Source: Scilla litardierei
Taxonomy: Eukaryota; Streptophyta; Magnoliopsida; Asparagales; Asparagaceae
Assembly: GCA_030789695.1 (NCBI GenBank)
Contig: CM061130.1
Coordinates: 8,609,860-8,673,859 of the forward strand
DNA: 64,000 nucleotides
Direction: 5' to 3'
Within the stretch, counting starts at the first letter, position 1. Each line of letters opens with the position of its first letter. A program made the position numbers and the translations under genes. Below are positions 5,871-64,000 of this stretch, piece by piece. The notes under the pieces are model-generated. The model made no database searches and had not been told where the DNA came from. It was given only the letters and a program-made list of their open reading frames with translations.

Positions 5871-5871
5871 C

Positions 5872-14394: not shown

Positions 14395-15861
14395 TGATTC
14401 TAGGAGAATATTATATTTATTACCCCTCATTTGACTGTATTTTGCGTATATATAATGTCTAATTGGTCTTTAATATGTGTATTTTTGTAATATCCTTTAA
14501 TATTAGAGCATATCGCTTGATTATGCGCAAAATACCATTTTATGGTCTAATTTTGTCTCATTTGTATTTTTCAGGTGAAGATTGCAATTTTCCAAATACA
14601 ATGGTTATTTTTCACATTTTTCGGACATCGGTGCAATTTTCTGTGAATTAAAGGGGCAAGATTGTTTTTTTAAAAACATAAAAAGAAAAAAAAACCCGCC
14701 TGACGCCAGCGCAACGCGCATTGGCGTGAGCCAGCTAAAAACCCTACCCCGTGGGCGGGGCGGTTTCTCAGCAGGTCGGTCCAGCGCCCGACCCGCTCCG
14801 CTAACTGGAGGGCGCCAACAGCCCACAAGTCAAAGCGGGCAGCCGCCCGCATTGACCACGTGGGCGCCCGCCCGCCTTGACTGAGCGGGCGGCGCCTGCC
14901 TTTACTGAACCCGCAAGCCCAGTAAGACCTAATTTTGCTATTTAAAGGGATTTTGGACGTAACTTCTTCATGAAAGCTCGGTTTTGAGCGAAATTTAAGT
15001 TGGGGGCTTCTCCCCCAAACTCCAGAGGAGCTAAAGCAGCTGTTGGATAGATTTGGGGGCGTTTGGGCTTCAAATTGGGTGAAAAATATCCTTTCTTTTC
15101 TTGTTTTAATTATGTTTTAATTATGTTTTGTAATGAAATGATGTTCTTATTAATAAAGATTGTTGTTTTTATTACCATGGCTAGCTAAAAATATAGTGAG
15201 TGTGATGTGTAGTAGTTAGTATTGATGGGTTTCATGTATCTTGTCTTCATAGTTCTTGTATTAATCGAAAACGTTGAATATGTCGTTTTTTGCTATCTTA
15301 ATTAATTACGCGCTATCCGAGATGAATCCGCTTAGGATGACATGCCGCGAGGCATCTTCTACATGCACAAACCCGTAGAGGGGCCCAAGGAGGATGATGA
15401 ACCGCGAGGTTCAACTAGTTATACTTTATTGTTTAGAAAAACAACCGAGTTAACGTTAATGTAATTTGCTATAAAATCACCCATCTTTTAAATGTTAAAT
15501 CATCTGATCCACATACCTTGGCATGGATGAGGAATTGAGTTATCCATGTAGAATGATTAGCATGTTATCCTACAAAACTAATGAGAACACAACACACACA
15601 CACACACTTTTACCATATCACTTTTCACGTTATTTACTTTCGTAACTTTTAGTACATGTTTTATCTCAAATCAAAACTTAAGCAAAAATTCACTTTCAAA
15701 TGGTGGTTTATATTTCACCAAATAATTTTCACGCTTAATTTCAGATTGTAAAACTTGTAGATTAGTTTGTCCCTGAGGAATACGATCCGGGACTCACCAG
15801 GATTACTACTTGACCGACTTCCTATACTTGGGAATATCACTGCAACATTTTGAACCAGTCA
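14395..15861 (+). mobile_element. 5' LTR of the gag-only element
   Basis: 1,467 bp, TG...CA, closely matching the copy at 18901-20397. A GC-rich array with inverted GCGGGC/GCCCGC motifs (14696-14911) ends about 28 bp before TATTTAAA (14939-14946), a probable TATA box. Near 15591-15607 it carries a (CA)n microsatellite exactly where the sister LTR has a (CT)n tract. Confidence 0.92.
14696..14911. repeat. GC-rich palindromic array upstream of TATA box (5' LTR)
   Basis: Contains repeated inverted motifs such as GCGGGCAGCCGCCCGC, GTGGGCGCCCGCCCGCC and GCGGGCGGCGCC, with several more diverged copies. The array sits in U3 directly before TATTTAAA. A matching copy is at about 19210-19420 in the 3' LTR. 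Confidence 0.75.
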
Positions 15862-15900
15862 AGTTTTTTACGTTGTTGTCGGAGACAACGGTCTATATTT
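15862..15900 (+). other. Primer-binding/leader region after the 5' LTR
   Basis: Directly after the LTR lies AGTTTTTTACGTTGTTGTCGG, a degraded relative of the GGCGCCGTTGCCGGGGA leader seen after the 5' LTR of Athila/Tat elements. The true primer tRNA cannot be named from this. Confidence 0.45.
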
Positions 15901-16184
15901 TTTATGATTTCTAATTAGCTTGAAAATTTTGGTGAGATTTGCCCACTTTTTGTGTATATATTCTTTGTATATCCATATTTTCAACTTTTTTCCTTTTGGT
16001 TATTCATTTTTTTGTTACGTTTTCTATAACTAGTTTTTTTATTTTGGATGTTTGGTTAGCGTGTCCCATCTTGAGTGTGTGATTTAAAATTTCTTTCTTT
16101 TACATTTTTAAGTCATTTTGTTTTCTTTATATTTTTACTTTTCTTTATATAAACAAAAAAATTCAAACTTTAAAAAAAAATTTA

Positions 16185-17679
16185 ATGCATCGTGCTATTG
16201 ATAGTGATGCAATCGTTTCCGACTTTATTACGGGGTTGATTCAAATCCAACCAGTTTTTCATGGTACGAAGGAGGAGAACCCACATTTACATTTACAAAA
16301 GTAAGAAACGATATGCCGCACTTTATTTGGTGGGAGTGCATGCATTGATGACTTATTTCTTAGATATTTCCCATATTCTTTGAGAGATTTTGCTAAGCTT
16401 TGGTTTGAAACATTGCCTCTTGACTCGGATTCTACTTGGTTGTCGTTTCAGGCTGAATTTCTTCGAGTATTTTTTTCCTATTTTCTTTGAGCAGATAGAG
16501 GGGCGGCAGGCCACGAAGCACCATGTAGCGAGCTTTGCTCAAGTTGATGAGGAGGCATACTATCAAGCTTGGCATAGGTTCAATGATTTGATGCTTGCAT
16601 GTCCACACCACAGCTTCCATGATGATCATCTCCTACAAATCTTCTACACGGGATTACTGCCTTCTGTGCAAGATTTCGTGCAGCCGAGCTACAATGGGAA
16701 ATTCTTTGCTTATTTGACCGAGGAAGCATGTCAGTACTTGAATGATCTTGCTGAGTATGAGGTTGCACTCCAACAGGTTCACAGCTGGCTTGAGGTTCTG
16801 CCTATAAGCTCATTCCAGTGCGACCCTCTGGAAAAACTTGAAGAACATATTGATGGGGTGCAATGGAGCTAAATGAAAGAAGCCGAACGATCATATCTTG
16901 AGAAGCAAGAGGAGGTGGATGATGGGGTGCAAGTTGACCATGATAGAATCTACTTTGATGATGCCGAGGAGGATATGTGCTAGGGAGCAAGCTTACAGAC
17001 CCCGACGGAGCTCGAGACATACCATCCTCCGACTTCAATGCTGCAACTCCCACTACCTTCACCTCAGGAGGTGATTGATGGAGATTGCGAGATGGTCTAC
17101 ATTGAGCCAGTGTTGTTTTACCCTCCAGACCCACTTCTACAGACACTTCCTCCACCTCCTGAGGCAGAGTATCAGATCGTGCGTAGCGACACATACCAGG
17201 GGAGTTCCCACAATTTCACGCCTTGTATTATTGAATCACAAATTTTAATTCCATATACTTTTGATTCAAAATGTCGTCAATTGAATTTAAACTCTTTAGT
17301 TAATTTTGACGACCCATTTTAGACCACTTTTGTTATAGGGCATGAGGATAATGCTTGGATTGATGCAGCTCGTCTGGGAGTTGCATTACTGGAATCCAAG
17401 GAGGCTGGTAGAGGCATAGCTTCGCAGCAGCTGGCTGAGGAGCGCAATAAGTTGATCGTGAAGATGCCACCTTTGCTAGAGATTCTGGATCCTCCATTTG
17501 TGATGGAGTTAGCACCTTTACCATACACGGCATGTAGCACTTATTGGATGCCAACTTTTACACAATTGCTTTTGGCATCGCCATCTCGAGCACTGACGGA
17601 GGATATACGCAAGGAGCTTCTGGAACAAATTCCTCCACCGATAGATATCTGTGATCCTCCATTTGGGAGGCTACGGTGA
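16185..17679 (+). pseudogene. Athila-like gag remnant
   Basis: Gag-like capsid sequence. It starts at ATG 16185 and includes PYSLRDFAKLWFETLP near 16371 and, in the next frame, EEAYYQAWHRFNDLMLACPH near 16548, both hallmarks of plant retrotransposon gag (Retrotrans_gag type). A 1-nt shift in a T-run near 16470-16480 separates the two frames. Stops follow at about 16302, 16870, 16981 and 17320, yet the frame stays coherent to 17679 with acidic and proline-rich text. There is no zinc knuckle and no pol. The last part (17323-17679) resembles nothing I recognise. Confidence 0.8.
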
Positions 17680-18900
17680 TCTCTTCCCTTTTTACCATTA
17701 TACGTCGTTATATATATTTGAAAGGGGATATGTTTGTTTATGCATTCACATATATTGATCTCCATATTTTAATCTGCTACCCTTTAAACATTGAGGACAA
17801 TGTTCATTTTAAGTTGGGGGAGGAAGTAGTAGAAATTTAAAAGCTTGCATAAACATTATATATAGTTTGTTGTTTGTTGGCATTATATATAAAAAATTTG
17901 TGTATAGTTTGCATCTATAGTTTTCATTTGTTTGCATAATAAAAAAGAGTGTTGTGTTTTTCACTAAAACCATCTTTATAGCCCTTTGAAGTAGAAATTC
18001 CATCGTCTTTAATTGAACACCTATATTCATTATTGATTAAGAATGTTTTAGCCCTACATATAACTTTCATTTATCATGATTTACATGTAAATTAGTGCAT
18101 GTATCTGCAATTGTAATCTCATAAAACTATTGTTTGGTTTAGGCAATTTCATGTCACATATGCGTTTATGAATTGGTAATTATGTGAAGATTGTTATAAA
18201 TTCATAGGATAACGGCCAACCACATACACAGGCTTGCTACTTAGTAAATGATGGAGAATTTTACTCAAACATGTCTCATGTCAAAAAAAAGAAGTACAAA
18301 TGAATAAAATGCACCGTTCTTCCAGCTCCCATTTAGTAGCCGGGTCCTCGTGCCTCAGGAAGCATTGGAGATTCGCATCGAAAAATGAAGTATGGGGGAG
18401 TGCATAATAATCTTCAGACATTCCGAGTTATTAAGTCTGAGGAGGTTTTCAAAACCTAATGCACTAATCTGTCTGGTTTGGGAGTCATTGACCTAACGCT
18501 CATTACATGGATTGCTCTAAAATGTTATTTAAAAAAGAAAAAAAGAAGAAAAAGAAGAAAAAAGAAAAAAAAGAGATGAGATATTTTGAGTGGATTCGAG
18601 ATCATGATCTTATGATTTGGGTGTTGTGATGGCCTAATCCTAGGAAATTTACAACCTAAGACATTTGATTACCTAATTGATTAAACAATTGCATTTGTGC
18701 GATACTGAATATGTGTGGATTGAGATAAAATTGTGAATTTTTGCTTTAGTCCATGAAAACCCATGATAGTTATTGAACTTTGTTGGGTAAGATTATTCTT
18801 AATTCATTTTAAGCTTATTGAAGTGAATATGGGGTGTATGACATATTTTCGGAATATTCGCTTATTTTGCTAAGAGACTAGCAAAAAGCTAGTTGGGGTG
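17680..18900 (+). other. 3' non-coding region of the gag-only element
   Basis: AT-rich, no supported gene. It holds TTGAGGACAATG followed by AAGTTGGGGGAGG (17791-17823), a conserved pair seen downstream of genes in many Athila/Tat elements, and an A/G-rich low-complexity tract at 18530-18575. TAGTTGGGGTG just before 18901 is the likely polypurine tract. Confidence 0.6.
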
Positions 18901-23828: not shown

Positions 23829-23864
<36 letters not shown>

Positions 23865-23955: not shown

Positions 23956-24309
23956 TGTTGTGTCCATATTTTCTATATTTTTATCGTGCATTTCCATATC
24001 GTTTCGATCGCCCAAATTAATGTTTTCATATTATATCGCGCTTTTCTCGATATATTTGATTCATGTGATGTTTTATATACTTTCAGGAATTCGGCGCGAT
24101 TCAGAGCGATACTGGAGCTTGGACACAACTTCGATGCCAAAGCTCGCCTCACCTCGCTACGGCGACTTATGGGGGGCTAAGGAAAGAAAAGAAGCGAAGT
24201 AGGAGAGGGAGAGGATGAAGAGAAGGAGAAAGAAGATGAAGGAGAAAAGTAGAAGAGATTGGAGAGTAAGGAGAAAGAGAGAAGGAAGGAAGGAGATGAA
24301 GAGTTGCCA

Positions 24310-24603
24310 GATCACTTGGTCGAGCGCATGATGCGCTCGACCGAGCTGTGACACCAAGACGAAGAGGCCAAGGATTCAAATGAGCGCTCGGGCAAGCGAC
24401 TCGGCCCGCTCGACCCGCTCGACCGATCGACCAAGTCGCTCGCCCGAGCCAGTCGTCAGTTGAGCCCCAATTTTTGCCTTCAACTCTCTGTTAAAGTGAC
24501 GCTTACTTCGCTCGGTCGAGCGGCTTTTCCGCTCGACCGAGCGGCCTCATCTTCAACCGAGCAACATCGATTCCTTAATATGGTGCTCGGTCGAGCGGCT
24601 TCC
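24310..24603. repeat. CTCGGTCGAGCG palindromic array (left part)
   Basis: Multiple copies and near-copies of GCTCGGTCGAGCGG and its reverse complement, some as tight hairpins: GCTCGGTCGAGCGG, five bases, then CCGCTCGACCGAGC at 24509-24543. The array continues after the inserted solo LTR at 26404-26490, 86 bp before the host LTR's TATA box. Confidence 0.85.
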
Positions 24604-26398
24604 TAGTCGTGGTCCGGATGCACTCCCAAAACAATGTAGTTTTACCGCAAGCGCACGGTCTAGTGACAAGCGGGTATCGATCACGTGGAGAAACTAATGA
24701 TGGTAATCTATATGATTTACTAAGATATTGGTGGAAAATTAGTTTTGAAAGAGTTGGTGTCACAATCGTTTAAGTATCGATGTAAATTCAATATATAAAG
24801 ATGTATAGGGCTTAGGAATCCCCAATATAGATCTCAAGTAATCAATGCAAATTACGAATCTCAATATTACTAAACTTGGGTTAAGGTAAACTTGTCTTAA
24901 CTAAATAGAGAACCAACGCACGCTCTCTCGCTAAGCAAGTTTATAGCAATCTAAACTAGAGCCTCACTCTCTCGCAAGCCTAGTTCAAAATACTAGCACT
25001 AAGATCGACAATTATAAACAATCCCAACTCAAGCTCGCTCTCGCGCAACTTAAGTTTGGATCTAGATCGTAATAGTTCGTACTCGTTTCACCATCGTGCA
25101 AACGAATATAAGTATAGAAATATAATAAAGATGCTAGCTTTGGTCGCTCTCGTGCACCAATTCTAGGGAATCTCGATTATAGATCTAAATCGAATATCTA
25201 GGGCTTCCCATAGATCAAGATCTTCTCTCGAGCTCTTAAGATCCAATGGAAATCCCTAACTATCTGTATTAAATTAATCATAATCTAACCCTTTAACAAG
25301 TTTAGCAACATGTGTATTCAATAATTTCACATATCAAACTTTAAATCTATTGGGTTTATCCCTTTGCCCTAGAGCAAAGAAATTACTTACAAATCATCAT
25401 GAAAAATCACAAGAGAAATAAGAGTGACAAGAGAATTCATTGCAAAACTCAGATCTAAGAAGAGATGTAGCATAAAATGTAAACTTGCAAGAGTTTTAGA
25501 CATATCAATGTCGATTGCAAGCTTCAATATAAAAATCAAGATCCAAGTCTTCAATCTCTCGTCAAAAGAAATCTCTAAACTAAAACTAAAACTCTGAAAA
25601 ATATGGAGTCTCTCCTCTCCTAGGCTGATTCAAGATCCGGCTATTTATATGTGCCCAAAAAGATGCAAAAATCCTAACAATTATGCCTTTGGTCGGCCTC
25701 AAACCCTACTTTGCAATCTGGGCTGACGGTGCCACTTGGCCGAGTGAGTAGCTCACTTAGTCGAGTGAGGAATATGCATCGAAATCGGAATATCGGCGTT
25801 CTGGGCTCCTCGGACCACTCGGTCGAGTAGTCTGCTCACTTGGTCGAGTGGAGTCTTCTGCAGATCCTCCAAAAAAATAGAGAAGTTTCCAAGATTTTCT
25901 TCACAAAATTTTGCTCTACTCGGTCGAGTGGAATCCTCACTCGGTCGAGTGGAATCCTCACTCGGTCGAGTGGAAATTCCCACTCGGCCGAGTACATTTT
26001 AGCTCTCAATCAGGCTTGATTCGTCGTATCAGCTTCACTCTGTCGAGTGAGTTGCTTCATTCGGTCGAGTGAGCAGCTTCACTCGGCCGAGTAGCCTACA
26101 TATCTTCTCAAACCTCTTTCTTCTTGCTTCATCGTCGATTCCTTCGCCTCTCTTCCTCTTCTACTCATCCTCTAGGGCCGTTAGCTCTCCGATATCGTCA
26201 TCAATGATGCTTCGGGATGTGTGTATGCGCTCATGGCTCCAAATCGCTCCTGATTGCTCCATATCTCCTGATATCAGACGAAACCAAGAAATAGTAAAAA
26301 GTATCGCGAAATCGTCGTATAATCATGAAAATTGCGATATGAGCAATCGAAATGGCATGCAATAATGCAAAAATAAAGTGTAAAATATGAGCCTATCA
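24604..26398 (-). mobile_element. Solo LTR, reverse orientation, 1.8 kb
   Basis: Read on the minus strand it begins TGATAGGCTC and ends CCACGACTA. The plus-strand flanks carry the identical 5-bp CTTCC (24599-24603 and 26399-26403). Removing it leaves a pattern matching the neighbouring hairpin of the host LTR, an independent check of the borders. The start region and the CGCTTGCGGT near the end resemble the host LTR, so both belong to related Athila-type families. The minus-strand TATA box is ATATAAAT (25650-25643). No internal coding region is present. Confidence 0.88.
25725..26100. repeat. ACTCGGTCGAGTG palindromic array in the solo LTR
   Basis: About a dozen copies of (C)ACTCGGTCGAGTGG or close variants, including three in near-tandem at 25917-25972 with spacer GAATCCT. 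In the orientation of the LTR the array lies upstream of the TATA box and ends about 75 bp before it. Confidence 0.88.
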
Positions 26399-26403
26399 CT
26401 TCC

Positions 26404-26490
26404 CCGCTCGATCGAGCGGCCCCTCTCAAGCTCCCCAGGATGAAGCTCCACGAGGCAGCGCTTGGTCGAGCGAGCTCCCCGCTCGACCAA
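26404..26490. repeat. CTCGGTCGAGCG palindromic array (right part)
   Basis: Continuation of the array at 24310-24603, separated by the solo LTR insertion. Copies include CCGCTCGATCGAGCGG and the inverted pair CTTGGTCGAGCG / CGCTCGACCAAG. Confidence 0.85.
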
Positions 26491-27214
26491 GTGCTAGGTT
26501 GGCAGACTACGTTTTTTGCTTTCTTATTGGGTTTCGGGTTGGTTTTGCTGTAAAACCCGAAATTAATGGGTTTTGTATATAAACCAAACAGTTTTTAGTT
26601 TAAGTTAAGCTTTATTTTACTGATGGAAACCTTAGAGCTATTAGAGAGGCTCTTTTTCTTGTGATTTTGTTTTACAATCTAAATCTTGGTAGTTATTCCT
26701 TTATCTTTGATTTTTTGAATTGTTGTTTTATATTACTTCCTCTTCGCATTGATATTAGTTTCATAATGTTTGCCCAAGTAATTATGTTAATCTCCATTGC
26801 TCTCACTTTTGTAGCCATAGCCATGCTAGAGTAGTGGGTATCTAGGGATTAGGGATGATCCTTAGGTTCCTAGGGATTGGATGTTAGGTTAGACCTTCGT
26901 TGGATGAATCTAGGGTCTCCCTATGGTGGTTTGAACAATGGTTTTGGGGGATTAGCCTTAGAATTGGAGGACCGCGAAAGCAACTCCATATCTTAGGGAG
27001 AATCCCCACGAATCCGATTTGGGCTTAGTGGCCATTTTCCGGGGCTCGCGCTCACGAGGGTGACTCGAGAGCAGGGGGCAACCATTAATCCCCAATCCGC
27101 TAGCCGATGACTACGAAAGTAGCCCGACCGCTAGAACCGACCATAGGATGGCGTCGCATTCCGTAGAGCACGCGAGTGCCTACGGATTGTGAGGTGGGAC
27201 CAAGTGCGTAATGC

Positions 27215-27297
27215 ATGCATTCCCGTATGAAGCCAGTCGCTAAAGCACGGGTCTATATAGGGATGTGTTAGACGAGCATGATAACGGAAGTCTAACG
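27215..27297. repeat. 83-bp flanking direct repeat, left copy
   Basis: Identical over 83 bases to 39837-39919 and placed directly outside the two ends of the SIRE-like element. It is host LTR sequence, from ATGCATTCCCG to GTCTAACG. See the finding on the unusual duplication. Confidence 0.97.
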
Positions 27298-28042
27298 TGT
27301 AATGCCCTACAAGCTACTGCACAAGTACTAGAGGGGGGGTGAATAGTACTTTAAAAATAACGAGGAGTATAATTCCTAATTATAGTGCAAACAACTACCA
27401 AATCAATTTGCGGAAGCTTAAATTGAAGACAACAACAAAATAAACAATGCTAACAAACGATATTACTGGGTTCGGATCCACCCAAGTCTCCCCGACTTGT
27501 TCCCGGTGATCCTACGTCCCAACCACCCGGATCCCCTCCGGATACTTGAGTTAGAAACCCTAACTCAAGATTTCCACTATGAAATACTTGTGAAAAACCT
27601 TCACAAGTCAAATCATACACAAAGTAATTTGTGACTCCCACAACCCGGGATCACAACCACACTCTCACAACCGAGAGTGAAACTTACAATATGAAATTGA
27701 AATGAAATAAGAAACTTCTTACCGACAAAATACATATGCCTTGAGTAATGCTTACGAATTAGGGCAAGGATGATTTTGAGGAAGAAGAAGTGGCACCAAA
27801 CCCTAGCTCCAAGATGTAGATCAACGATGGAGAGCTATGGGGATTTTGGTGACCTAGAATCAAGCACTTGGCTTGGAAGGCTTCACACTCAATGAATCTC
27901 TCTTTGGAAGTAAGAGTGAGTAGAGATTATTGAATGGAATGAAAGAGCTTTAAATGAGCTTGGAATGATTTCTCTTGATCTCTAAACTTACAATAATATC
28001 AGCCTTGACTGCAATGAATGCAGCCCAACAAGTATTTATAGG

Positions 28043-28045
<3 letters not shown>

Positions 28046-28084
<39 letters not shown>
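28046..28084. repeat. (GA)n microsatellite in the SIRE-like 3' LTR
   Basis: About 19 GA units between the palindromic array and the TATA box. The sister LTR has a longer tract (about 39004-39048), so the length has changed since insertion. Confidence 0.95.
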
Positions 28085-28087
<3 letters not shown>

Positions 28088-28119
28088 GTTTCAATTAAAG
28101 CTCCAACGGCTCTTTTCTG

Positions 28120-28790
28120 AACCCAACTAGTCGGTCAAAGAACAACCACCGACCGACTAGTTCATCAACTAGTCGGTCGGTCAATCAACGTATACCGACT
28201 AATGAGTGAACAGAGAAAAGATCAAAGCATAGACATAAGGAACTAGTCGGTCCAAGAAGAGTAGCTGACCGACTAGTTTCACAACTAGTCGGTCGGTCAC
28301 ACAACTGAGACCGACTAACAGATAAAGCTGAAGTCTGAGCAGAAATAGACTTAGTCGGTCCAAGAACAAATGTTGACCGACTAATTCACCAACTAGTCGG
28401 TCGCCAAATGAGCATAGACCGACTAACGATAAACAGTAAGTTAGGTGAAAAATTGGTATGTACAGTAAAACTAAACTAGTCGGTCCAAGAAGGAAAGTTG
28501 ACCGACTAGTTCATCAACTAGTCGGTCGATCAATGAACACAGACCGACTAAAGATAAACAGTAGCTCAGGCTCAAAAGTGCATATACAGGGAAAGCTCAA
28601 CTAGTCGGTCACAGAAGCATCACTGACCGACTAGTTCACAAACTAGTCGGTCGGTGAGTCAACTTAGACCGACTAACTGTAAACAGTAAAGAGCTTGAAA
28701 ATGACTGAGAAGAACTAGTCGGTCCAAGAAGCTTTGCCGACCGACTAGATCACCATCTAGTCGGTCAGTTCTTCTTCTTGAACCAACTAA
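28120..28790. repeat. ACTAGTCGGTC palindromic array, six units
   Basis: Six units of about 95-125 bp. Each has the pattern AACTAGTCGGTC, spacer, GACCGACTAGTT, short loop, AACTAGTCGGTCGGTC, spacer, GACCGACTAA. Every unit can fold into two adjacent hairpins. The spacers vary between units, while the 11-mers are largely kept. The array lies in U3 upstream of the TATA box. Confidence 0.95.
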
Positions 28791-29184
28791 CATGCACAAG
28801 AAGTCGCGAATCGAAGCACGAAGCTTCGGGAAAGATTGTATGGACTTCTACTAAGATCTTAGAGCTAAGATATGAGCGTTATGAAGATTTAAACCGTAAG
28901 ACCTACTCAAGGCTTAACATTCTACGAAAGAAGCTTAAAGACTATAAATAAAACTTGACGATTCCGTCTTCAATAGCTTCAATCGAATCTTCATGACTTC
29001 TAAAAAGGTCCATAAGCTTCAACGAAGCTTTAGGCATACGATCACGTGCTTTGAGAAGTCTTGAGACGTCGTAATTGATATTCATATGAATTTGGCGACG
29101 ATCTCCATAACTGCGCTCACAAAGTGTTAGTTCACGTTATATTTATGTTTGTTCATCATCCAAAACCAAATCCGGGGTCCAACA

Positions 29185-29200
29185 TTCTCCCCCTTTTTGG
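29185..29200 (-). other. Polypurine tract of the SIRE-like element
   Basis: On the minus strand CCAAAAAGGGGGAGAA directly precedes the LTR start TGTTGG. This is the usual plus-strand primer form in SIRE-like Copia elements. Confidence 0.92.
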
Positions 29201-30178: not shown

Positions 30179-31823
30179 TCAAGAGGAACCGGCAGGATCT
30201 GCAGCAACAGTAGTCTCTACAGGAGAAGTGGCGGAAACTGGATCAGCAGGAACGTCTGGAATGTCAGCAGGAGCGACGGAAGAAGTGGCAATCTCTGGAG
30301 CAGCAACAGTAGTGGCCTCGGGAGCACCAGTCGGAGTATCCACCGCAGGAGTGGTGGCAACAGGTGTGCTCTCGGGGGCACCAGCAGACGAAGCAGCAAC
30401 AGCAGCACCAGAAGTGCCCTCGGGGGCACGAGTGGAAGCACGACAAAGCTCCTCAATGTCCTCCTCAGCCAACTCATCCATCTCCTCATCCTCAGAAACA
30501 GGAGGAGGAAGCTGAATACCCATCAGACTAGCCATACGGCAAACTACCTCCTCGGTACGAGCCAAACGAGACTTGTGACGACGAAGTAACCGGACGACAT
30601 CATCAAGGGTGGCAGAGGGAGCAGCAGAGGCAGAGGCAGAGGCAGACACTGAAGGTGTCGTCCTCTGAACGTGACGGAGCGCCGCAAGAGATTTCTTGAC
30701 GGCCGTCGCGTTCAGGGGAGGACCAAGTGGACGCTCATCGTCACGAGACAAAGGGACACGGAAGTGACAGAAAACAAGGGTCAACAAGCACGGAAATGGG
30801 ATATGAGCCGATTTCGAGGACTTGCGAATACACTCGAAAGAGTCAATCTTATCGAGTATAATGCGAGCCTAGTTAATCGAGCTCCCCATGAAAATGGCAT
30901 AGATCAGCTTCAGAAAAGGCTGGGACGGTAGAGATGAGGAGCCGTACTTGGGAAGCAAGCACGACTTCAGAATCAAGTTGAGGACCCATGCATTTGGCTT
31001 GAAAGATTTGGAAGGCACGCCAATCATGGCGGGAGGAATCTGATGGAAAATCTCAGAGAGGACGGTCTGATCAAGGGAAGAAATATCATCAACAGAAATG
31101 TCTGAGGGGAGGAGGCCAGACGAGGAGATACCCAAAATCTCTCCTAAGATTTCTGTTGTGAGGGACTATAGGAGTCCCCAAAACAGTCGTCTCAACAGAG
31201 TGGGTCTCATCGTACTGACCCCGGATCCTATTGGCATAGAATAGCTTTACTAATCGAGGGTAGGGGTGAGGATTCGCCTTCGGGTCATATCGAAGGTAAT
31301 CGAGAAGACCCGAGGACGAAAGAAGATCAGCTAGCCCTATGAAGTCACTGAACTGGACGAAATGCTCCAGAAGCAGCGGGCAATGTTCGATACGGTTGTA
31401 AGCCGCGAGACACATAGGGTCGTCGCGACACAACGAGATATCGACACCGCCAACCGGCATCGGAGCCTTTCCCTTAGGCTTACGGGTAGACGTGCGAGGT
31501 CGGGAGCTAGACTCAGGATGGGTAGGAGGAGTGGGTTCCCTATGAGTCTCAGGCTCGGGGATATACTCGGTGTCGGAATCCGAAGCACCGGGAGGAGTGG
31601 GAGCACGAAAAATAACTGGCTTGGGCTTGGGCTGAGATCGGGCTCGGGGTTTCGCAGTCGCCGTCCTCTTACGCTTAAGAGGAGGCGAAGACGAAGAGGG
31701 TTGGGTGGTCTTAGCACGACGTCTAGGAGGGGTTCGCTTAGGTTGATCGGGATCCGTAGGGTTAGGTTCTACGGTCATCGGCGAGGGGCTAGATGGAGTG
31801 ATCGGGATACGTGTTCTTGCCAT
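30179..31823 (-). pseudogene. Env-position ORF of the SIRE-like element, broken
   Basis: Starts at ATG 31823 (minus). The N-terminal ~130 residues are basic and Pro/Ser-rich (KRTPPRRRAKTTQPSSSSPP). Next is a globular part with YPRLVKLFYANRIRGQYDET, resembling the 'putative plant transposon protein' domain of plant elements. After a frame break near 31140 and a stop near 30890, the C-terminal part has a predicted helix (TLDDVVRLLRRHKSRLARTE) and a long Ala/Thr/Pro-rich tail ending at 30179. No clear signal peptide or membrane segment was seen, so 'envelope' refers to position only. Its function is unknown. Confidence 0.75.
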
Positions 31824-32159: not shown

Positions 32160-32590
32160 CTGCCCCTGAGCTCTTAGTCGGTCTAAGTTCAAACGCTGAC
32201 CGACTAGATGACGATCTAGTCGGTCGGTTAACGAGCTTGAACCAACTAAGTGTAAACAGAGAACAGTCGAAGATTTCCTGAACGAGAATTAGTCGGTCTA
32301 CGCTCAAGTACTGACCGACTAGAACTCAATCTAGTCGGTCGATAAGTAAGCTTGAACCGACTAAAGAGTTAAGCTGGAGAGGAAACTCAAAATAGCTTGA
32401 GTTAGTCGGTCTGAGTTCTTTTACTAACCGACTAGATACGAATCTAGTCGGTTTGTGATTGAACTGAAACCGACTAAAGGAGTTCAAAAGTTGAGAGATA
32501 GAGCTAGTCGGTCTGAGTTTATTAGCTGACCGACTAGATGCGAATCTAGTCGGTTGGTTAATAAACTGAGATCGACTAGATGAGTCCAAA
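32160..32590. repeat. Internal palindromic array, four units
   Basis: Four units of about 105-115 bp built like those in the LTR: TTAGTCGGTCT, spacer, CTGACCGACTAGAT, loop, ATCTAGTCGGTCGG, spacer, AACCGACTAA. It is diverged from the LTR array and placed between RNase H and the env-position ORF. Confidence 0.93.
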
Positions 32591-32655
32591 AATTGATAAT
32601 TAAGTTCTCTCCTCAAAACACTTGGACGATACATCGCAATCCTCTCAAAAATCAT

Positions 32656-35600
32656 CTAAACTACCCCATTAAACATTGAAATCTCAAATACGACATTCAA
32701 ACATGAATTCGAGCAAAAATTCAAAATATCACATAAAATCCCGAAAAATCCAATAAGTCTAGCATGAATGAAATATTGCGAAATATAATAGCATGCAAGA
32801 TTATTGAATGAAACATGAATCCTATATCTCGGATTCACCCATAATCCCAATTCTCGACGCAACCGCACAAAGGAGTCCTCCTTTAGGGGTTTCGTGAAAA
32901 TATCGGCGATTTGCTTTTGGGTTTCAACGTACACTAAAATGATGTCCTTTTTAGCAACATGGTCATCTAAAAAGTGGTGTCGGACATCTATGTGTTTCGA
33001 ACCGGAATGGTGTACCGGGTTCTTGGAAAGACATATTGCACTTTGGTTGTCAACCATGATAGGACAAGTATCACAGTTTATACCAAAGTCTTTAAGTGTG
33101 TGTCTCATCCAAAGAACTTGAGCACACGCGGCACCGGCGGCAATGTATTCCGCCTCGGTGGTTGAAAGTGATACGGAATTTTGCTTCTTGGAAAACCAAG
33201 AGACAAGGGAATTTCCTATAAAATGGCAAGTGCCACTAGTACTTTTCCTGTCGGATTTGCATCCCGCATAATCGGCATCACTATATGAGATTAACTCATA
33301 CGTGCTAGATTTTGGATAAAGTAATCCAAAATCAAGTGTATAACTTAGATAACGGAAAATACGTTTTACCGCTACTAAGTGAGACTCCTTAGGTTGAGAC
33401 TGATAACGAGCACATACGCATACGGCAAACATAATATCGGGCCTACTTGCGGTAAGATAAAGTAAACTACCTATCATACCTCGATATAGACGAATGTCTA
33501 CATCCTTACCGCCGGTATCCTTATCAAGATGTGTAGTCGTGCTCATTGGAGTCTTTTTCCCGGAGGCACTCTCCATTCCAAATCGATTTAGCAACTCCAC
33601 CGTGTACTTCGTTTGGTGGATGAAGATTGCATCGTCCATTTGGCGAATTTGGAGACCTAAGAAATACTTGAGCTCACCCATGTGGCTCATCTCAAATTGT
33701 TCCTTCATAACATTAGAAAATTCTTCGCAAAGAGCAAAGTTAGTAGCACCGAAAATGATATCATCAACATATATTTGAACTAAAATTATATCATTATTCG
33801 AATGCTTAACAAAAGTGTAGAATCGGCTTCTCCCATTTTAAAATTCAAATCCAAAAGAAAATTCTTTAGGCGATCATACCAAGCTCGAGGAGCTTGTCTC
33901 AAGCCGTAAAGTGCTTTCTTTAGTTTAAAAACATGATTTGGAAATTTTTCATTAATAAAACCCGGAGGTTGAGAAACGTAAATTTCCTCAACAACATCTC
34001 CATTTAAAAATGCACGTTTAACATCCATTTGAAATAATTTAAAATCCTTATGGCATGCAAAAGACAATAATAATCTAATTGATTCTAATCTAGCTACCGG
34101 AGCGAAGGATTCTTCGAAATCAATACCTTCCTCTTGGCGGTAGCCTTGAGCAACTAACCGAGCTTTGTTCCGGACGACGACTTGGTTCTCGTCGGTTTTG
34201 TTCTTGAAGATCCACTTTGTCCCTATGACGGTGTGGTTCTTCGATGGCAATGGAACAAGCTCCCCAAACTTCATTCCTCTCGAATTGAATGAGTTCCTCC
34301 TCCATGGCTAAGATCCCAGCGCTATCTTCGCATGCTTCATTAACATTCTTTGGCTCTATCGAGGAGGCAAAGGCACAATGAGCGAAGCAGTTCACTTGCG
34401 ATCTCGTCTTGACACTATCATAGATATTGCCAATGACTTGCTCATGAGGATGGTCACGAACGGTATGAAGCCGTTTGGGAATACCTTGATCACTAGGAAC
34501 ATTCTCAACAACTTCATTAGATGGGTTAGTCTCAATAGAATCAATAGAATCATTAGAGTTAGAATTACCAATTGAATCACATAAGACATCCATAGAGTCA
34601 TCATCATTAGTAATTCTAGTTGGAACAAATCCTTCATTAAATGACACATGAAGCGACTCCTCGATCGTTGAGGTTCGTTTGTTGAATATCCGGTAGGCTT
34701 TGCTACACGAAGAATATCCAACAAAAATCACCTCATTGGATCTTGGATCGAATTTGTCCAAACTACCATACGTGTTTTTAATAAAACATTTCGAACCAAA
34801 AACACGAAAATGTTTAACTTGAGGCAACCTACCAAACAACAATTCATAACAAGTTTGTTTAGTGCCGGGCCTCAAAAGTATTCTATTAAACACATAGCAA
34901 GCTGTGTGTACCGCTTCCGCCTAAAATTGATGGCCAAGTTGGCTATTATCAAGCATAGTGCGAGCACACTCCACTAGCGTCCGATTCTTTCTCTCAACTA
35001 CACCATTTTGAGGAGGTGCACGAGGAAATGAAAAGGTGTGTGTAATACCAACTTCATCACAAAATGTCTCAAAAGACTCATTCTCAAATTCACCTTCAGT
35101 AGTGACTATGGTGGTTCCTAAGAGATTTTGTACTTTCTTAACAAAAATTGTGAAGTTTTCAAAAGCTTCATTTTTATTACACAATGAAAATACCTAAGTA
35201 AACCTAGAAAAGTCATCAACGGTGACAAGTCCATATCTAGCATTACCTAATGAAGCAACTCTAGTTGGCCCAAATAAATCTAGATGTAATAGCTCTAGAG
35301 GCCGCTTAGAAGAAATGCTTTTCTTAGGTTTAAATGAAGATTTTGGAAGCTTTCCTCGTTGACACGAGTCACAAAAGCTTTTCTTTTGAAAGACAAGCTT
35401 AGGAAAGCCTCTAATAGACTTTAACTTGGAAAGCTTAAAAAGTGTTCCAAAGTTCACATGACCAAAACGTCGATGCCATAAGTGTTGTTCACGTGTGTTG
35501 GCAATAAGACATTGTTCATGTGATCTTGGAAGATCTAGGATATATATATCCTTATGGAGTGTGCCGGAAAACAATAATTCATTATTATCTTTTCTTAAAA

Positions 35601-35880
35601 TATGGCACATTCCTTTCGCAAAGTTAACTTTGTTACCTTTGTCACAAAGTTGACTTATTGAAATAAGATTGTGGTTTAATCCTTTAACAAGGTAAACATC
35701 ACATATAATGGGTTTAGAAGGATTACCCACTTTACCAACACCTATGATGGTTCCGCTCTCGTTGCCTCCAAACACGACGCGGTTTCCATTTGCAATGGGA
35801 AACACTCCGGAGAGCAATTGAGCGTCACCCGTCATGTGTTTTGAACACCCGCTATCGAGTATCCAATTCCCCTTGGAGCT
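32656..35880 (-). pseudogene. SIRE-like pol (PR-IN-RT-RH), broken
   Basis: Minus-strand Copia pol. Protease active site WILDSGCSKHMTGD near 35862; integrase zinc region HLWHRRFGHVNFGTL near 35500 and CDSCQRGKLPKS; integrase core with LDLFGPTRV, VDDFSRF and PPQNGVVERKNRT; RT with [16 protein letters not shown] near 34030 and the catalytic YVDD near 33760; RNase H with SYSDADYAGCKSDRKSTSG near 33290 and the conserved ADIFTKPL near 32900. Stops near 35194 and 34921 lie where relatives have tryptophan. A 1-nt loss near 33815 shifts the frame within RT, and another break lies near 34120-34270. It would have copied and integrated the element. Confidence 0.92.
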
Positions 35881-35978
35881 AAATTTAAATTTGTTGCTCC
35901 TTTTCTTTTTCTTTTCCTTGAGTACCTAAAGATAGAAAATTTCACATCATGGTACCCAAGGTCATTGGGTCCAAAAGA

Positions 35979-38226: not shown

Positions 38227-38236
38227 AGCTAAGTAT

Positions 38237-38253
38237 CTGGCTTTGATACCAAA
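38237..38253 (-). other. Primer-binding site, initiator tRNA-Met type
   Basis: On the minus strand TTTGGTATCAAAGCCAG follows the LTR end CATTACA. It is a close match to TGGTATCAGAGC, the site complementary to the 3' end of initiator tRNA-Met used by most plant Copia elements. Confidence 0.92.
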
Positions 38254-38996
38254 TGTAATGCCCTACAAGCTACTGCATAAGTACTAGAGGGGGGGTGAAT
38301 AGTACTTTAAAAATAAAGATGAGTATAATTCCTAATTATAGTGCAAACAACTACCAAATCAATTTGCGGAAGCTTAAATTGAAGACAACAACAAAATAAA
38401 CAATGCTAACAAATGATATTACTAGGTTCGGATCCACCCAAGTCTCCCCGACTTGTTCCCGGTGATCCTACGTCCCAACCACCCGGATCCCCTCCGGATA
38501 CTTGAGTTAGAAACACTAACTCAAGATTTCCACTATGAAATACTTGTGAAAAACCTTCACAAGTCAAATCATACACAAAGTAATTTGTGACTCCCACAAC
38601 CCGGGATCACAATCACTCTCACAACCGAGAGTGAAAACTTACAATATGAAATTGAAATGAAATAAGAAACTTCTTGCGACAAAATACCTATGCCTTGAGT
38701 AATGCTTACGAATTATGGCAAGGATGATTTTGAGGAAGAAGAAGTGGCACCAAACCCTAGCTCCAAGATGTAGATCAGCGATGGAGAGCTATGGGGATGT
38801 TGGTGACCTAGAATCAAGCACTTGGCTTGGAAGGCTTCACACTCAATGAATCTCTCTTTGGAAGTAAGAGTGAGGAGAGATTATTGAATGGAATGAAAGA
38901 GCTTTGAATGAGCTTGGAATGATTTCTCTTGATCTCTAAACTTGCAATAATATCAGCCTTGACTGCAATGAATGCAGCCCAACAAGTATTTATAGG

Positions 38997-39051
<55 letters not shown>

Positions 39052-39836
39052 GTTTCAATTAAAGCTCCAACGGCTCTTTTCTGAACCCAACTAGTCGGTC
39101 AAAGAACAACCACCGACCGACTAGTTCATCAACTAGTCGGTCGGTCAATCAACGTATACCGACTAATGAGTGAACAGAGAAAAGATCAAAGCACAGACAT
39201 AAGGAACTAGTCGGTCCAAGAAGAGTAGCTGACCGACTAGTTTCATAACTAGTCGGTCGGTCACACAACTGAGACCGACTAACAGATAAAGCTGAAGTCT
39301 GAGCAGAAATAGACTTAGTCGGTCCAAGAACAAATGTTGACCGACTAATTCACCAACTAGTCGGTCGCCAAATGAGCATAGACCGACTAACGATAAACAG
39401 TAAGTTAGGTGAAAAATTGGTATGTACAGTAAAACTAAACTAGTCGGTCCAAGAAGGAAAGTTGACCGACTAGTTTCATCAACTAGTCGGTCGATCAATG
39501 AACACAGACCAACTAAAGATAAACAGTAGCTCAGGCTCAAAAGTGCATGTACAGGGAAAGCTCAACTAGTCGGTCACAGAAGCATCACTGACCGACTAGT
39601 TCACAAACTAGTCGGTCGGTGAGTCAACTTAGACCGACTAACTGTAAACAGTAAAGAGCTTGAAAATGACTGAGAAGAACTAGTCGGTCCAAGAAGCTTT
39701 GCCGACCGACTAGATCACCATCTAGTCGGTCAGTTCTTCTTCTTGAACCAACTAACATGCACAAGAAGTCGCGAATCGAAGCACGAAGCTTCGGGAAAGA
39801 TTGTATGGACTTCTACTAAGATCCTAGAGCTAAGAT
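38254..39836 (-). mobile_element. 5' LTR of the SIRE-like element, outer end missing
   Basis: Matches 27298-29184 from the inner end but stops at TAAGATAT; the outer ~304 bp, including the TGTTGG terminus, are absent. In place of the missing end the 83-bp host sequence follows directly. The retained part still has the TATA box (39004-38998) and the palindromic array. Confidence 0.95.
39080..39755. repeat. ACTAGTCGGTC palindromic array in the truncated LTR
   Basis: Sister copy of the six-unit array at 28120-28790, with only scattered differences such as one extra T near 39475 and one changed GACCAACTAA near 39507. Confidence 0.95.
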
Positions 39837-39919
39837 ATGCATTCCCGTATGAAGCCAGTCGCTAAAGCACGGGTCTATATAGGGATGTGTTAGACGAGCA
39901 TGATAACGGAAGTCTAACG
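39837..39919. repeat. 83-bp flanking direct repeat, right copy
   Basis: Exact copy of 27215-27297. It begins right at the truncated end of the LTR, where the bases ATG are shared between LTR and host sequence. Confidence 0.97.
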
Positions 39920-40286
39920 CTCGTTTCCATCTCCGGATGCGACACTCCTACCCCAATCTATTGTCCGACGAAGGACCATTTGTCTGACGAAGGGCCTAGC
40001 GGAGAATCCCGAACGCCTTAGACGTTTAATATTTAGTTAATTCCACTTCTCACAACCAACCAATCAATTCCAACGTGACAACCCGACCACACATTATCCT
40101 CCTTCCACAAAAAGCTAAGTGTTAGACGATCGCCTCCCTAGAGTTCGACATTCTATAAATACTTAACGTATCGTGCACTTGCGGTGACCCGTCCGTCTTC
40201 GCGGGCGAGGAACAGTAACACATGAAGGTAACCAAAAAGTTAAATTATCAAAATCTTCTCTTTATGTTGGTAGGTACGAACAATTT

Positions 40287-41321
40287 ATGATGGAGAAGGG
40301 GGTGAGCATAACAGAGATGTACACGCGGTTTACGGAGATCGTCAAAACACTTGCGGGATTGGGAAAGAAGTACACACAAGAAGATCATGTATGCAAGGTC
40401 CTTAGACCCCTCACTCTCGAATGGCAATCCAAAGCTTCGACCATTGAAGAGGGCAACGACACTTCAAAGCTAATCTTGGAGGAGCTCATCAGCAATCTAA
40501 TGGCATATGAACTCCAATTGCAAGAGAGAAAGACCAAGGAGCACGGTGAAAAGAAGAAGAATATCGCATTCAAATCCACATCGAATATGGAGGAATTTGA
40601 TGATGAAGTCAAAGATGAAATGGAGAAACAAATGGCACTCATCTCCAACATATTAAAGAAAATCATCAAATCACGTAAGTCTCAAAACCAAAATTTTAAT
40701 TCTACTAACGAACCTATTTGCTATGAATGTAATAGGCCTGGTCACATGAAGAAGGAGTGTCCACTAAAGAAAAACAGAGACAAGAGAATGAAGTCGTACA
40801 AGGGCAAAAGGCCAAATAGAAAAGCTTTAGCGGCTTGGGATATAAGCGATGAAGAGGATTCAGATAGCTCATCATCATCCGAAAGTGAAGGAGACGCAAG
40901 TAAAAGAAATGAGATGTCATATATGTGCTTCATGGCACGTAGAGATCCCATGGTAAATTCTAACACTAACTCTAGTGATAGCGATAGTAGCAATGATGAG
41001 GACCTTGATTATGAGAAGGAGTTTCATAGGCTTTATGCTAAATATGAGGAAATACTTAGAGAGCTTTTAACTCTCAAAAAGAAGCATAAATCTTGTGGAA
41101 CTAATTCTCCTAATCTTGAGCTAGAAAAGATTAGAGAAGAAAACATAAAATTGATTATTAAAAATAAAGATCTAGTAGAAAAGAATAGATTGCTTTACCT
41201 AGAATATAAAGAGGTAGGAAATAGGTTTAGAGACTTAGAAAAGAACATGACCGCTATTAAGGCAAAGCACGAGGACTTGGTTAATAATATTGCTAAATTT
41301 CTCACAAAGACCATTAACTAG
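40287..41321 (+). CDS. Copia gag (truncated element), open frame
   Basis: 344 residues from the first ATG in frame. Coherent gag sequence continues upstream of it to about 40250, so the ATG is internal to the ancestral gene. Residues 1-80 match the UBN2-type gag domain (EMYTRFTEIVKTLAGLGKKY). A CCHC zinc knuckle CYECNRPGHMKKEC is at residues 145-158. A Ser/Asp/Glu-rich part (185-240) and a Leu/Lys/Glu-rich probable coiled coil (245-344) follow. It binds nucleic acid in the virus-like particle of intact elements. The frame has no stop, unlike most neighbours, but no pol follows. Whether it is expressed is unknown. Confidence 0.85.
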   Translation: MMEKGVSITEMYTRFTEIVKTLAGLGKKYTQEDHVCKVLRPLTLEWQSKASTIEEGNDTSKLILEELISNLMAYELQLQERKTKEHGEKKKNIAFKSTSNMEEFDDEVKDEMEKQMALISNILKKIIKSRKSQNQNFNSTNEPICYECNRPGHMKKECPLKKNRDKRMKSYKGKRPNRKALAAWDISDEEDSDSSSSSESEGDASKRNEMSYMCFMARRDPMVNSNTNSSDSDSSNDEDLDYEKEFHRLYAKYEEILRELLTLKKKHKSCGTNSPNLELEKIREENIKLIIKNKDLVEKNRLLYLEYKEVGNRFRDLEKNMTAIKAKHEDLVNNIAKFLTKTIN

Positions 41322-42041
41322 CCGACATGGCTTAGGTTACAATGTGGCTACTCAAAATGCTAGGATTTCTCAACATCAAGCTAGAGTTCCTAAAACTGAA
41401 AATGGATATGTTAAAGTTTGGATTCCCAAAATTGGAACCGTCCAAATGAAAGACAATTACATTTCTAGTTTTATAAACAACATTCATTTTTGTAGAGATT
41501 ATAGATTTTCTTATGGGAAATCAAAACCCAAATGGGTTTGGTTCCATATTGGTTGATATTTATTATTATGTATGACTAATCTCATGGACTCAAAAGAAAA
41601 GAGTACCAAAATCTGGATTTTTGTATGTACTCACATTTTTCAACGGATTAGTAGAGGATCTCCCAATGAATCTCAAGATATATGCATGGATTAAGGGGAG
41701 ACCCAACTTCAATGATGCTAACATTAAGGGGGGAGCATATGCAAGAAAAATTTATTTTAATAAAAAAGGCATTTTTTTAACACTTGGTGTTAGAGCTTTG
41801 TCTCATAAGATGTATTTTTTCATTAGCACTTATATTTCTCTTGGCATCATACACATGTTGATATTGAGTCACATACACTCCGAGAGAGAGATATGTATGG
41901 GAAAATAATTTTTTTGGGTTTTATATTTAATTTGTTTTACCTTTTTAATGATGCCAAAGGGGGAAAGAGAATATAATATGCACACATGCATTGCATAGTT
42001 TTTAATGTTTTTATGTTTGTATGCAATATATTGTCATCATC
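41322..42041 (+). other. Remnant between gag and polypurine tract
   Basis: A short stretch (to about 41556) still reads as the end of the gag-like linker with VKVWIPKIG and KPKWVW. After that there is no recognisable protease, integrase, RT or RNase H, so about 4 kb of pol expected for the family is missing. The rest is T-rich non-coding sequence. Confidence 0.6.
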
Positions 42042-42055
42042 AAAAAGGGGAAGAT
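42042..42055 (+). other. Polypurine tract of the truncated Copia element
   Basis: AAAAAGGGGAAGAT preceded by CATCATC, directly before TGTTTGATATTG. Same arrangement as in the SIRE-like element. Confidence 0.85.
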
Positions 42056-43799
42056 TGTTTGATATTGAGTATCCACCCCGTGGTTATTTTGATAATGAGC
42101 AACATATTATGGTACTAATGCTTTTCATTGACATTGTGTATAGAAATCATATCATGAATATAGGTGATGAAGCATATGATGGAGAAGCTTAATCAAAAAG
42201 TGCAAAGCATGGATTCAAGAGATGAAAGCTAAGAGCAAGCATGATAAACCATTCTCAAGGACATTGGAGAACAAAAGCTAAATGAATCCAAGAGAAACGA
42301 AGAATTAGAATTTTGGCTTGGTGTAAGTGTTTAGTATATGAAAGCTCTTGATAAAGCCACACACACGTAGAATATTCCAAAAATGACTTTAAAATGTTTT
42401 TAAAATGTGTTAAAATGTTTTAAATTAGTATATAATTAATTATAAATATTTTCAAAGTATTTTTATGTAGAAAAACTCAAGTTTCAGGAAATAGCCGACT
42501 ATCTTAAACAGATAGCCGACTATCTACAGTCAGATTTTTACCCAGAACTCTCGGGTTTTGAAATAGCCTACTAGTTTCGAAAATAGACGACTATCTGAGT
42601 AGATAGCCTGCTATCTGGGTCAACTTTCAGCTTTTAAGGAAATTTTGATTTTAAATTAACTAGTCGTTTGAGAAGATTTTTTGGGCTGATTTTGTGCTAA
42701 TTTTAAGCTATTTTTTACTCTATAAATAGCCAAACTTTCAGAGGTTTTTAGACATCAAATCATTCATTTCAAAATCATTATATTGCACAAAAGTTCTCAA
42801 TGCTCTCTCATTTTTTGGAAGTCTTTTTAGGCATTGTTCAAATTTTTGTGCGGAAAATTATTTGCCGAGTTTATTTATCTTATTGGCCTAACACTAAATT
42901 TATTTGATCTCCAAAGCTTATAGCATTTATTTTAGAGATTCAAACTTCAAGTTTACATTTTTGATCTTTGTGTTTGCTCACTTATGTTCTTTCAAAGATC
43001 AAGTCTTGAATATTGATCTCTATAAATCTCAAGTGCTAATCTTTTAGAAAATCAATTTCATTGATCAAGTTTATGTTTAACATTCAATATTTTATTTGAT
43101 CAAAAGAATTTCAATTTCTTTTAGCCACGATATTCACTCACATATACATTGGTTATAAGAATTTTGTGAGTTCATTAAATCTTGTTTTAATCTCTGTTTT
43201 TGGATTTAAACCAAGTTTATTTTTGATCTCTCAAGCTTCTAAAAGATTTTCATATTTGAGATCAAATTCACTCCTATAGCAATCACATACACAAGGGCTT
43301 CATCAAGCAGCTAAAGGTATTTGTAAATCTTCAAATGTTGTAAGTAACTCTTGCTTGGGCTTTAGGAAGATGGATTTCTTCATTGTATGTGAGGATTTGT
43401 AAATCCTAGTTGGAGGCTAGGTGGTGAGTAAACTCTTGTTGTAGGCAATGAGTTTGTAAAAGTCATTGGCTTGTGAAGCAATGGAAAATCATCATTAGAA
43501 GTGTGGTGGTTTGTACTATTTACCGAAAATAGTGGATTAAAGCTCGACAAAGATTCGGGGACTGGACGTACCCAAGTTGTGGGGAACAATGATAAAACTC
43601 TGTGAGTTTGCAATTGTGATTTATTCACTTGCATTTACATTCCACTGCTTATCTTTATTATTGAAAGTATTTGTTGACTAAGATTAATATTAGGTAATTC
43701 TATATTAATCTAAGTGAGAATTCTAGAGGTAAAATTTTATTTTCTGAAAACACTATTCCCCCCCCCCCAGTGTTCTCTTTGCCATCTCAGGTCCCAACA
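42056..43799 (+). mobile_element. 3' LTR of the truncated Copia element
   Basis: Begins TGTTTGATATTGAG and ends GGTCCCAACA, about 1.74 kb. The TATA box is TATAAATAGC at 42721-42730. A short palindromic array precedes it. A poly-C run lies at 43758-43769 close to the end. No second copy is in the window, so the right border rests on the ACA end alone. Confidence 0.75.
42483..42625. repeat. GATAGCCGACTATC palindromic array
   Basis: Five or six copies of (A)GATAGCCGACTATCT or variants (ATAGACGACTATCTG, GATAGCCTGCTATCT), each nearly self-complementary. It lies in U3, ending about 95 bp before the TATA box. Confidence 0.88.
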
Positions 43800-63967: not shown

Positions 63968-64000
63968 TCCAAAATCCACATCAAGTAAAGACCACAAAGA

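Follow-up and report, generated by a model that had tools for sequence, protein, structure and literature searches.

Palindrome arrays ahead of TATA boxes and envelope-like genes in Athila and Sirevirus-type retrotransposons of Scilla litardierei

Retrotransposon long terminal repeats (LTRs) in a 64,000-nt stretch of the Scilla litardierei genome (assembly GCA_030789695.1, 3.68 Gb in 7266 contigs; contig CM061130.1, positions 8,609,860 to 8,673,859; hereafter the window, whose positions serve as coordinates) carry arrays of short palindromes upstream of their TATA boxes. The feature spans two superfamilies, Copia (Sirevirus) and Gypsy (Athila). In two Athila families and in a Sirevirus-type element, designated (d), the palindrome of the LTR recurs at an internal site upstream of the envelope-like open reading frame (ORF). 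Among the arrays measured for spacing, a distance of 19–23 bp between neighboring palindromes recurs. We consider it probable that these promoter-proximal arrays are clustered sites for dimeric, sequence-specific DNA-binding proteins, located both at the LTR promoter and at an internal promoter of the envelope-like gene. The position before TATA, the dyad symmetry, the distance of two helical turns and the presence of one motif at two sites all fit proteins of this kind. The arrays are thus a clue to how the envelope-like gene may be switched on, and they suggest control by DNA-binding proteins.

Five arrays of the window, (a) to (e), and their TATA boxes were checked by direct reading of the sequence. 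We took LTR (b) as a Gypsy LTR because an ATHILA ORF-1 fragment precedes it (PF03078; 20925..21308, plus strand; 26.9 bits against a cut-off of 20.2). The 5′ part of (b) (23956..24598, plus strand) ends at the insertion of a solo Athila LTR, (c) (24604..26398, minus strand), flanked by the target-site duplication (TSD) CTTCC at 24599-24603 and 26399-26403. Comparison with the empty site shows that (c) interrupts a single array of CGCTCGGTCGAGCG palindromes, whose parts lie at 24310..24598 and 26404..26490, followed by the TATA box TATATAAA at 26576..26583. Only a weak insertion preference for palindromes is described in the relevant passages of PMC6911290, so we do not read the position of (c) as targeting. 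LTR (c) has its own CACTCGGTCGAGTG array on the minus strand (25725..26100), upstream of ATATAAATAG (25641..25650), and is homologous in three blocks (71-86%) to the LTR of L032/L028, an element that encodes gag and ATHILA ORF-1 (L-numbers denote stretches fetched elsewhere in the genome). The ORF-1 upstream of (b) and the LTR that (c) shares with the gag/ORF-1 element place both in Athila. Neither they nor the Athila arrays described below belong to Sireviruses, as indicated by PF03078 ATHILA, Retrotrans_gag PF03732 and the primer binding site (PBS) TTTTTGGCGCCGTTGCCGGGGA.

Element (d) is a minus-strand Copia element with GAG-pre-integrase, Pol_BBD and RVT_2 domains (end of the reverse transcriptase, by domain match, at 32656..33837), a 1.9-kb LTR and, behind pol, an envelope-like ORF. 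Its 3′ LTR (27298..29184; reading and self-comparison, ends set by eye) adjoins a polypurine tract (PPT) octamer, AGGGGGAG (29187-29194), and contains half-sites TAGTCGGTC and GACCGACTA in inverted order at 28120..28790, ahead of the TATA box CTATAAATA (28033..28041) behind a CT run. Self-comparison places the 5′ LTR at 38254..39838, also on the minus strand and without its first ~310 bp; the array is likewise present. Beyond this LTR comes an exact 81-bp copy of the opposite flank (39839-39919 versus 27217-27297), an unusually long flank duplication. Array (e), made of GATAGCCGACTATC (42483..42625, plus strand), lies upstream of the TATA box CTATAAATAG (42720..42729) in an LTR that follows a Sirevirus-like PPT (AGGGGAAG); Copia gag (PF14223) is found nearby at 40188-41321, and no pol was seen in this neighborhood. 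The palindrome of (e) has 482 and 536 genome matches on the two strands, and its reversed control 1 and 0.

The weakest case is a GC-rich patch with three palindromes (14696..14911, plus strand) before the TATA-like CTATTTAAAG (14939..14948) of LTR (a). Self-comparison and the TSD GCACT define the LTR copies of this 6-kb non-coding element (5′, 14395..15861, plus strand; 3′, 18901-20397; 90% identical), which has no ORF of at least 180 amino acids in 15862-18900. As (a) does not repeat one palindrome many times and shows a flat profile around TATA, it was dropped as an equal member of the set.

For a view beyond the window, 21 stretches at fixed positions, picked regardless of content (13 of 10 kb and 8 of 5 kb; 170 kb in total, one with a run of N), were sampled from the genome. 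By eye, arrays with a TATA-like box downstream were recognized in L010 (GGAGTCGACTCC), L011 (CAGTCGACTG; Copia gag), L018 (TTAGTCGACTAA; PPT GGGGGGAG; extra palindromes in the linker, 5830-6120) and L025/L031, a second copy of LTR (b) that is 71-79% identical; L027 (CAGACGTCTG) is less clear. L018 also has a GC-rich patch resembling (a) at 8600-8840. The family cores (TAGTCGGTC, CAGTCGACTG, TTAGTCGACTAA, CTCGGTCGAG, CTCGGCCGAG and AACCGATCGGTT) include TCG or CCG in most cases.

Inverted 6-mer pairs were counted against 500 dinucleotide shuffles per array. The counts are far beyond chance in the first part of (b) (125; expected 18.9, shuffle maximum 37), in (c) (129; 23.4, 42) and in (d) (873; 61.8, 97), and beyond chance by a small margin in (a) (36; 15.3, 31), in the second part of (b) (16; 3.1, 16, equalled in 1 of 500 shuffles) and in (e) (18; 4.1, 16). 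Strict palindromes (arms of at least 5, spacer of at most 4) reach 1.4 per 100 bp in (a), 1.7 and 1.1 in the two parts of (b), 2.7 in (c) and 1.4 in (e), making (a) equal to (e), compared with 0.66 in the whole window. Because its units are half-sites, (d) stays near this background in the LTR (0.9) and in its internal array (0.7). Inverted 7-mers are denser in the bins from -500 to -100 than after TATA in five of seven LTRs profiled (b, c, d, L011 and L018), whereas (e) is ambiguous. The sequence-only reading had claimed five arrays before TATA in two superfamilies. Its observation was largely right: the claim holds for (b) to (e), whose arrays end ~75-95 bp upstream of TATA, and more weakly for the patch of (a).

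Internal arrays, which the same reading had named as an outcome against it, do occur, but the typed cases sit upstream of an envelope-like ORF. We identified them in a high-copy Athila family through PF03078, for which a genome search returned 33,173 first-look candidates. The 92 that were scored and listed lie above the cut-off without exception, and the 1.9 kb upstream of seven of these was analyzed. All seven regions contain eight or nine AACCGATCGGTT-type palindromes (at most two mismatches). The array stops 12 bp short of CTATATAA, after which come a C/T-rich leader and, at 439-450 bp, an ATG. The regions count as one family because they are mutually 85-96% identical over 951-1900. Upstream of the internal site is a protease ORF (PF13650, 26.8-31.0 bits) in six copies and an integrase end (PF00665, 33.5 bits) in L038. 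The protease ORF reaches straight to the envelope-like site in the six (L034-L037, L039 and L040), so pol seems to be missing from them; most Arabidopsis Athilas are likewise reported without pol in the corresponding passages of PMC2410132.

The palindrome of this family also marks its LTRs. For example, LTR L041 has nine copies (at most two mismatches), the last ending at 683, with TATAAAT at 696 and then a PBS-like TGGCGCCGTTGCCGGGGA; matches between this LTR and the internal array span 32-45 bp. Genome-wide, the palindrome CAACCGATCGGTTG has 34,625 sites and its reversed control 1. Four clusters within the first 50 listed sites are ordered as a 20-bp doublet, internal sites and a second 20-bp doublet (e.g., C1:3941051/3941071, 3945151/3945304/3945388 and 3948672/3948692, with doublets of exactly 20 bp), and the others are single.

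A second Athila family, a relative of (c), has the same layout. Stretch L028 encodes gag (PF03732, 41.7 bits) and protease (PF13650, 27.5 bits). Behind these, ACTCGGCCGAGT palindromes occupy 4553-4877 and TATATAAG stands at 4891; next come a leader and, in L030, an ORF matching PF03078 (40.1 bits). The L028 LTR is followed by TTTTTGGCGCCGTTGCCGGGGA, which we read as the PBS. The same palindrome lies in the LTR of the family at L033 2989-3502, 94 bp before GTATTTAAGG, and BLAST matches between the internal site and the LTR cover only 30-38 bp. Thus, as the L041 and L033 LTRs show, each of the two Athila families has its family palindrome in the LTR as well as at the internal site, and in both the internal array is followed by a TATA box 12-13 bp past the last palindrome. 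None of the 7996 candidates scored in a homologue search with residues 1-420 of L030 reached E <= 0.001. The Athila element of L032, L028, L030 and L033 is arranged in tandem: 5.5 kb that lies upstream of the 5′ LTR and takes in part of it corresponds to the 3′ side at 99.6-99.8%, suggesting unequal recombination.

Element (d) has an internal array as well (32165..32596, minus strand), which the sequence-only reading overlooked. It consists of the (d) motif, lies between pol and the envelope-like ORF (31089..31823, minus strand, from the first ATG; basic N-terminus, no Pfam match at E 5) and exceeds all 500 shuffles in inverted 6-mer pairs. Motif copies precede the envelope-like ORF in all three (d)-type loci inspected (the window, L012 and L014), and the leader after the array is C/T-rich, with TAGGGTTT. 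The motif, GACCGACTAG...CTAGTCGGTC in inverted orientation, has a CGG-CCG signature and 23 exact half-sites in the 3′ LTR, against a threshold of at least eight copies; as to a predicted CpG island, another RM-box trait, the array has a GC content of 0.44 and an observed/expected CpG ratio of 1.00. Six of the 21 sampled stretches contain such an array (L009, L012, L014, L015, L016 and L024). The distance from array end to TATA is 43-95 bp in the eight LTRs measured (85 and 95 in the window, 65 in L014, 65 in L016, 53 and 53 in L012, 43 in L009 and 53 in L024; L015 is outside this count). By the motif, the pre-TATA cluster, the copies before ENV, the PPT AGGGGGAG and the Copia reverse transcriptase, the LTR and internal arrays of (d) match the RM boxes published for Sireviruses; array (e) probably does as well. 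The PBS of (d), TATCAAAGC, agrees with the Sirevirus PBS (TATCAGAGC) at 8/9 positions.

For the expression of plant retrotransposon envelope-like genes, passages of PMC2829016 list as proposals splicing, suppression of the stop codon and an as yet unidentified internal promoter. Splicing is a real rival to an internal promoter because an acceptor-like TTTTGCAG directly precedes the Athila array in six of seven copies (L037 reads TTTTGCAA). The array would then belong to the 5′ untranslated region of a spliced envelope-like mRNA and would have no promoter function, and splice acceptors have been predicted in Athila and BAGY2 (passages of PMC2829016). However, splicing accounts neither for the TATA box that both Athila families have 12-13 bp past the array nor for the use of the LTR's own palindrome. 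We regard this alternative as improbable, though the most credible of those considered here. The Athila internal site, with its array, TATA box and ORF, makes the idea of a promoter directly testable, and the family palindrome offers tens of thousands of sites.

The property that recurs among families is the spacing of the palindromes. In 13 arrays, 50 of 99 neighbor distances fall within 19–23 bp, compared with a mean of 12.5 and a maximum of 24 in 2000 trials of random placement, and doublets at this distance are present in 11 of the 13. Without L041, the fraction is 47/91, or 39/82 and 57/106 with the mismatch limit lowered or raised by one; a set of 10 arrays in which (b) and (e) were each joined by a second copy gave 52/84. 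Phasing at longer distances is weak, at ~10-10.5 bp (Rayleigh p about 0.002-0.005, uncorrected for nine periods tried). Having half-site units, (d) was left out of the 13 arrays; its half-sites alternate at 24, 18 and 24 bp, and like-oriented sites are 42 bp apart. The sequence-only reading had proposed a similar core and one host factor for all arrays. A common factor is unlikely because the cores differ by family while the spacing recurs, and we rejected it as a candidate.

In the model that we favor, each palindrome would be the site of a homodimer and specific to its family. Neighboring sites two helical turns apart would position two dimers on one face of the DNA, where they could act jointly on the downstream TATA complex. 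In Sirevirus and Athila elements, the carriers of envelope-like genes, the LTR promoter would make the gag-pol RNA and a second, internal promoter would drive the envelope-like ORF. Protein binding, an internal transcription start and joint regulation are what we infer from these sequences. Convergent architecture, family-specific motifs and the recurrent 21-bp distance suggest that selection acts on recognition by protein, and they could guide the search for activating factors.

Several observations weigh against this model. The distance range, the motifs and the mismatch limits were set after inspecting the data, and the 13 arrays are not all independent, because (c), L033 and L028 are related, as are L041 and L036. 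The arrays of L017, L026 and L029 do not fit the pattern: L029 and L017 have no 19–23 bp doublets (0/12 spacings), and the array of L026 is in the leader after the PBS, outside U3. The L033 LTR leaves 94 bp between the last palindrome and the TATA-like box. No TATA[AT]A separates the internal array from the envelope-like ORF in the three (d)-type loci, which means that transcription there would have to start without a TATA box, and the (d)-type envelope-like ORF of L014 ends after 8 codons. Furthermore, duplication could explain the spacing where spacer identity among equal-length pairs is high, as in L036 (0.78), L033 (0.67) and L027 (0.63).

High spacer identity is also what neutral expansion by slippage, unequal exchange or template switching would predict, with CpG-rich palindromes retained by chance. 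Copy numbers vary, TRF reports tandem units in (a), (c) and (d), and two spacers of (c) are identical (AGGATTC). Yet the distance is kept despite dissimilar spacers in (b) (identity 0.19), L028 (0.25), L011 (0.36) and (c) (0.45), with L010 at 0.50, and neutral expansion does not account for one motif at two separate sites of an element or for the same pattern with different motifs in two superfamilies. We consider this explanation unlikely, and give a similarly low weight to a role of the palindromes at the RNA level. Being in U3, the arrays would be carried at the 3′ end of the genomic RNA, and their hairpins there could feed or decoy small-RNA silencing. Indeed, folding is stronger than in shuffled sequences, with z-scores of -6.97 for (b) (200 shuffles), -6.51 for (c) (100), -17.6 for (d) (20), -3.68 for (a) (200) and -3.37 for (e) (200, one as good), and small RNAs are over-represented at palindrome clusters of maize Sireviruses (Bousios et al., 2016, quoted from a passage of PMC10760457). 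Hairpins, however, require neither a fixed distance of 20-22 bp, nor a place before TATA, nor a second cluster before the envelope-like ORF. Strong folding makes a small-RNA consequence compatible with regulation: the motif may be selected by regulation, with silencing secondary.

A more speculative extension of the DNA-binding model, which we judge rather unlikely, is that Athila and Sirevirus envelope-like proteins, instead of being envelopes, work in the nucleus as sequence-specific regulators (activators, or anti-silencing factors in the manner of VANC). They would recognize the palindrome doublets of their own family in the LTR and at the internal promoter of their own gene, closing a self-activating loop. 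This would explain why motifs differ by family, why each recurs at both sites and why the envelope-like ORFs have N-termini rich in lysine and arginine (MARTRIP...PPRRRAK...PPLKRKR, MPPRTRPRSKRASAKRKR and MAKDKDKGKG...RKRRK). We know of no VANC-type protein for Athila or Sireviruses. VANDAL elements are DNA transposons and provide an analogy only. Passages on VANC anti-silencing describe targets that vary between related elements, are often tandem repeats and are read by an element-encoded protein (PMC5735166). Exchange of a promoter module between Sirevirus and Athila is very improbable: both lineages place family palindromes in the LTR and before the envelope-like ORF and recombination among Athila families is known (passages of PMC2410132), but the cores differ and no Copia-to-Gypsy match is among the LTR-comparison matches listed, leaving convergence as the simpler explanation.

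The sequence-only reading knew of no earlier description of such arrays as a cross-family feature, which is incorrect for the Copia half. Sirevirus RM boxes, which the corresponding sections of Bousios et al. (2010, PMC2829016) confine to Sireviruses and describe as lacking in classic Copia, are many-copy palindromic boxes shortly before the LTR TATA and upstream of ENV, with an element-specific motif and a CGG-CCG core in all but one. Our arrays differ from that account in occurring also in Athila (Gypsy), in having a TATA box after the internal array and in the 19–23 bp doublet spacing; a search of the PMC2829016 text for spacing terms found no statement on inter-box distances. The open PubMed Central papers, available mostly as titles and passages, include no report that we found of Athila arrays, a TATA-bearing internal site or the 19–23 bp distance. 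Thus, the Copia half is already known and the Gypsy (Athila) half looks new. More generally, a passage of PMC10760457 notes that the cis-regulatory regions of transposable element families are often arrays of repeats, sometimes palindromic, and the Tnt1 box I palindrome, by its description in PMC2829016, is another symmetric regulatory element of a plant LTR retrotransposon. Passages of PMC4029996 describe CpG islands in Gypsy Del (Del/Tekay) LTRs, many of which have in their 5′ half a block that is rich in CpG and variable in length. Eudicot Del groups lack it, and the term 'palindrom' does not appear in the main text of that source.

Further arrays lie outside the set in L009 (2001-2400), L013, L014 (7551-8400; CCTTGGCCA/TGGCCAAGG hairpins with CCACGTGG) and L023 (satellite-like). 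A large GC-rich CCCTGGCC/GGCCAGGG palindromic array occupies L026 560-1060, in a Copia leader between PBS and gag. Palindromes of the form GCGGCCCC...GGGGCCGC, several spaced ~60 bp apart, adjoin an LTR-like start (TGTAACGGCCC) at L017 7100-7560. Two palindrome hot spots of the window (58701-59500 and 63351-64000) resemble foldback or terminal-inverted-repeat elements by eye and were set aside. In the first, a GC-rich core with inverted ends (TTAGCATATTTGTCCCTT ... AAGGGACAGATATGCAAA) at 58740-59510 is probably an element of this type; at 63613-63855, units of GTATATTAACGTATACTAGT form a strong inverted repeat.

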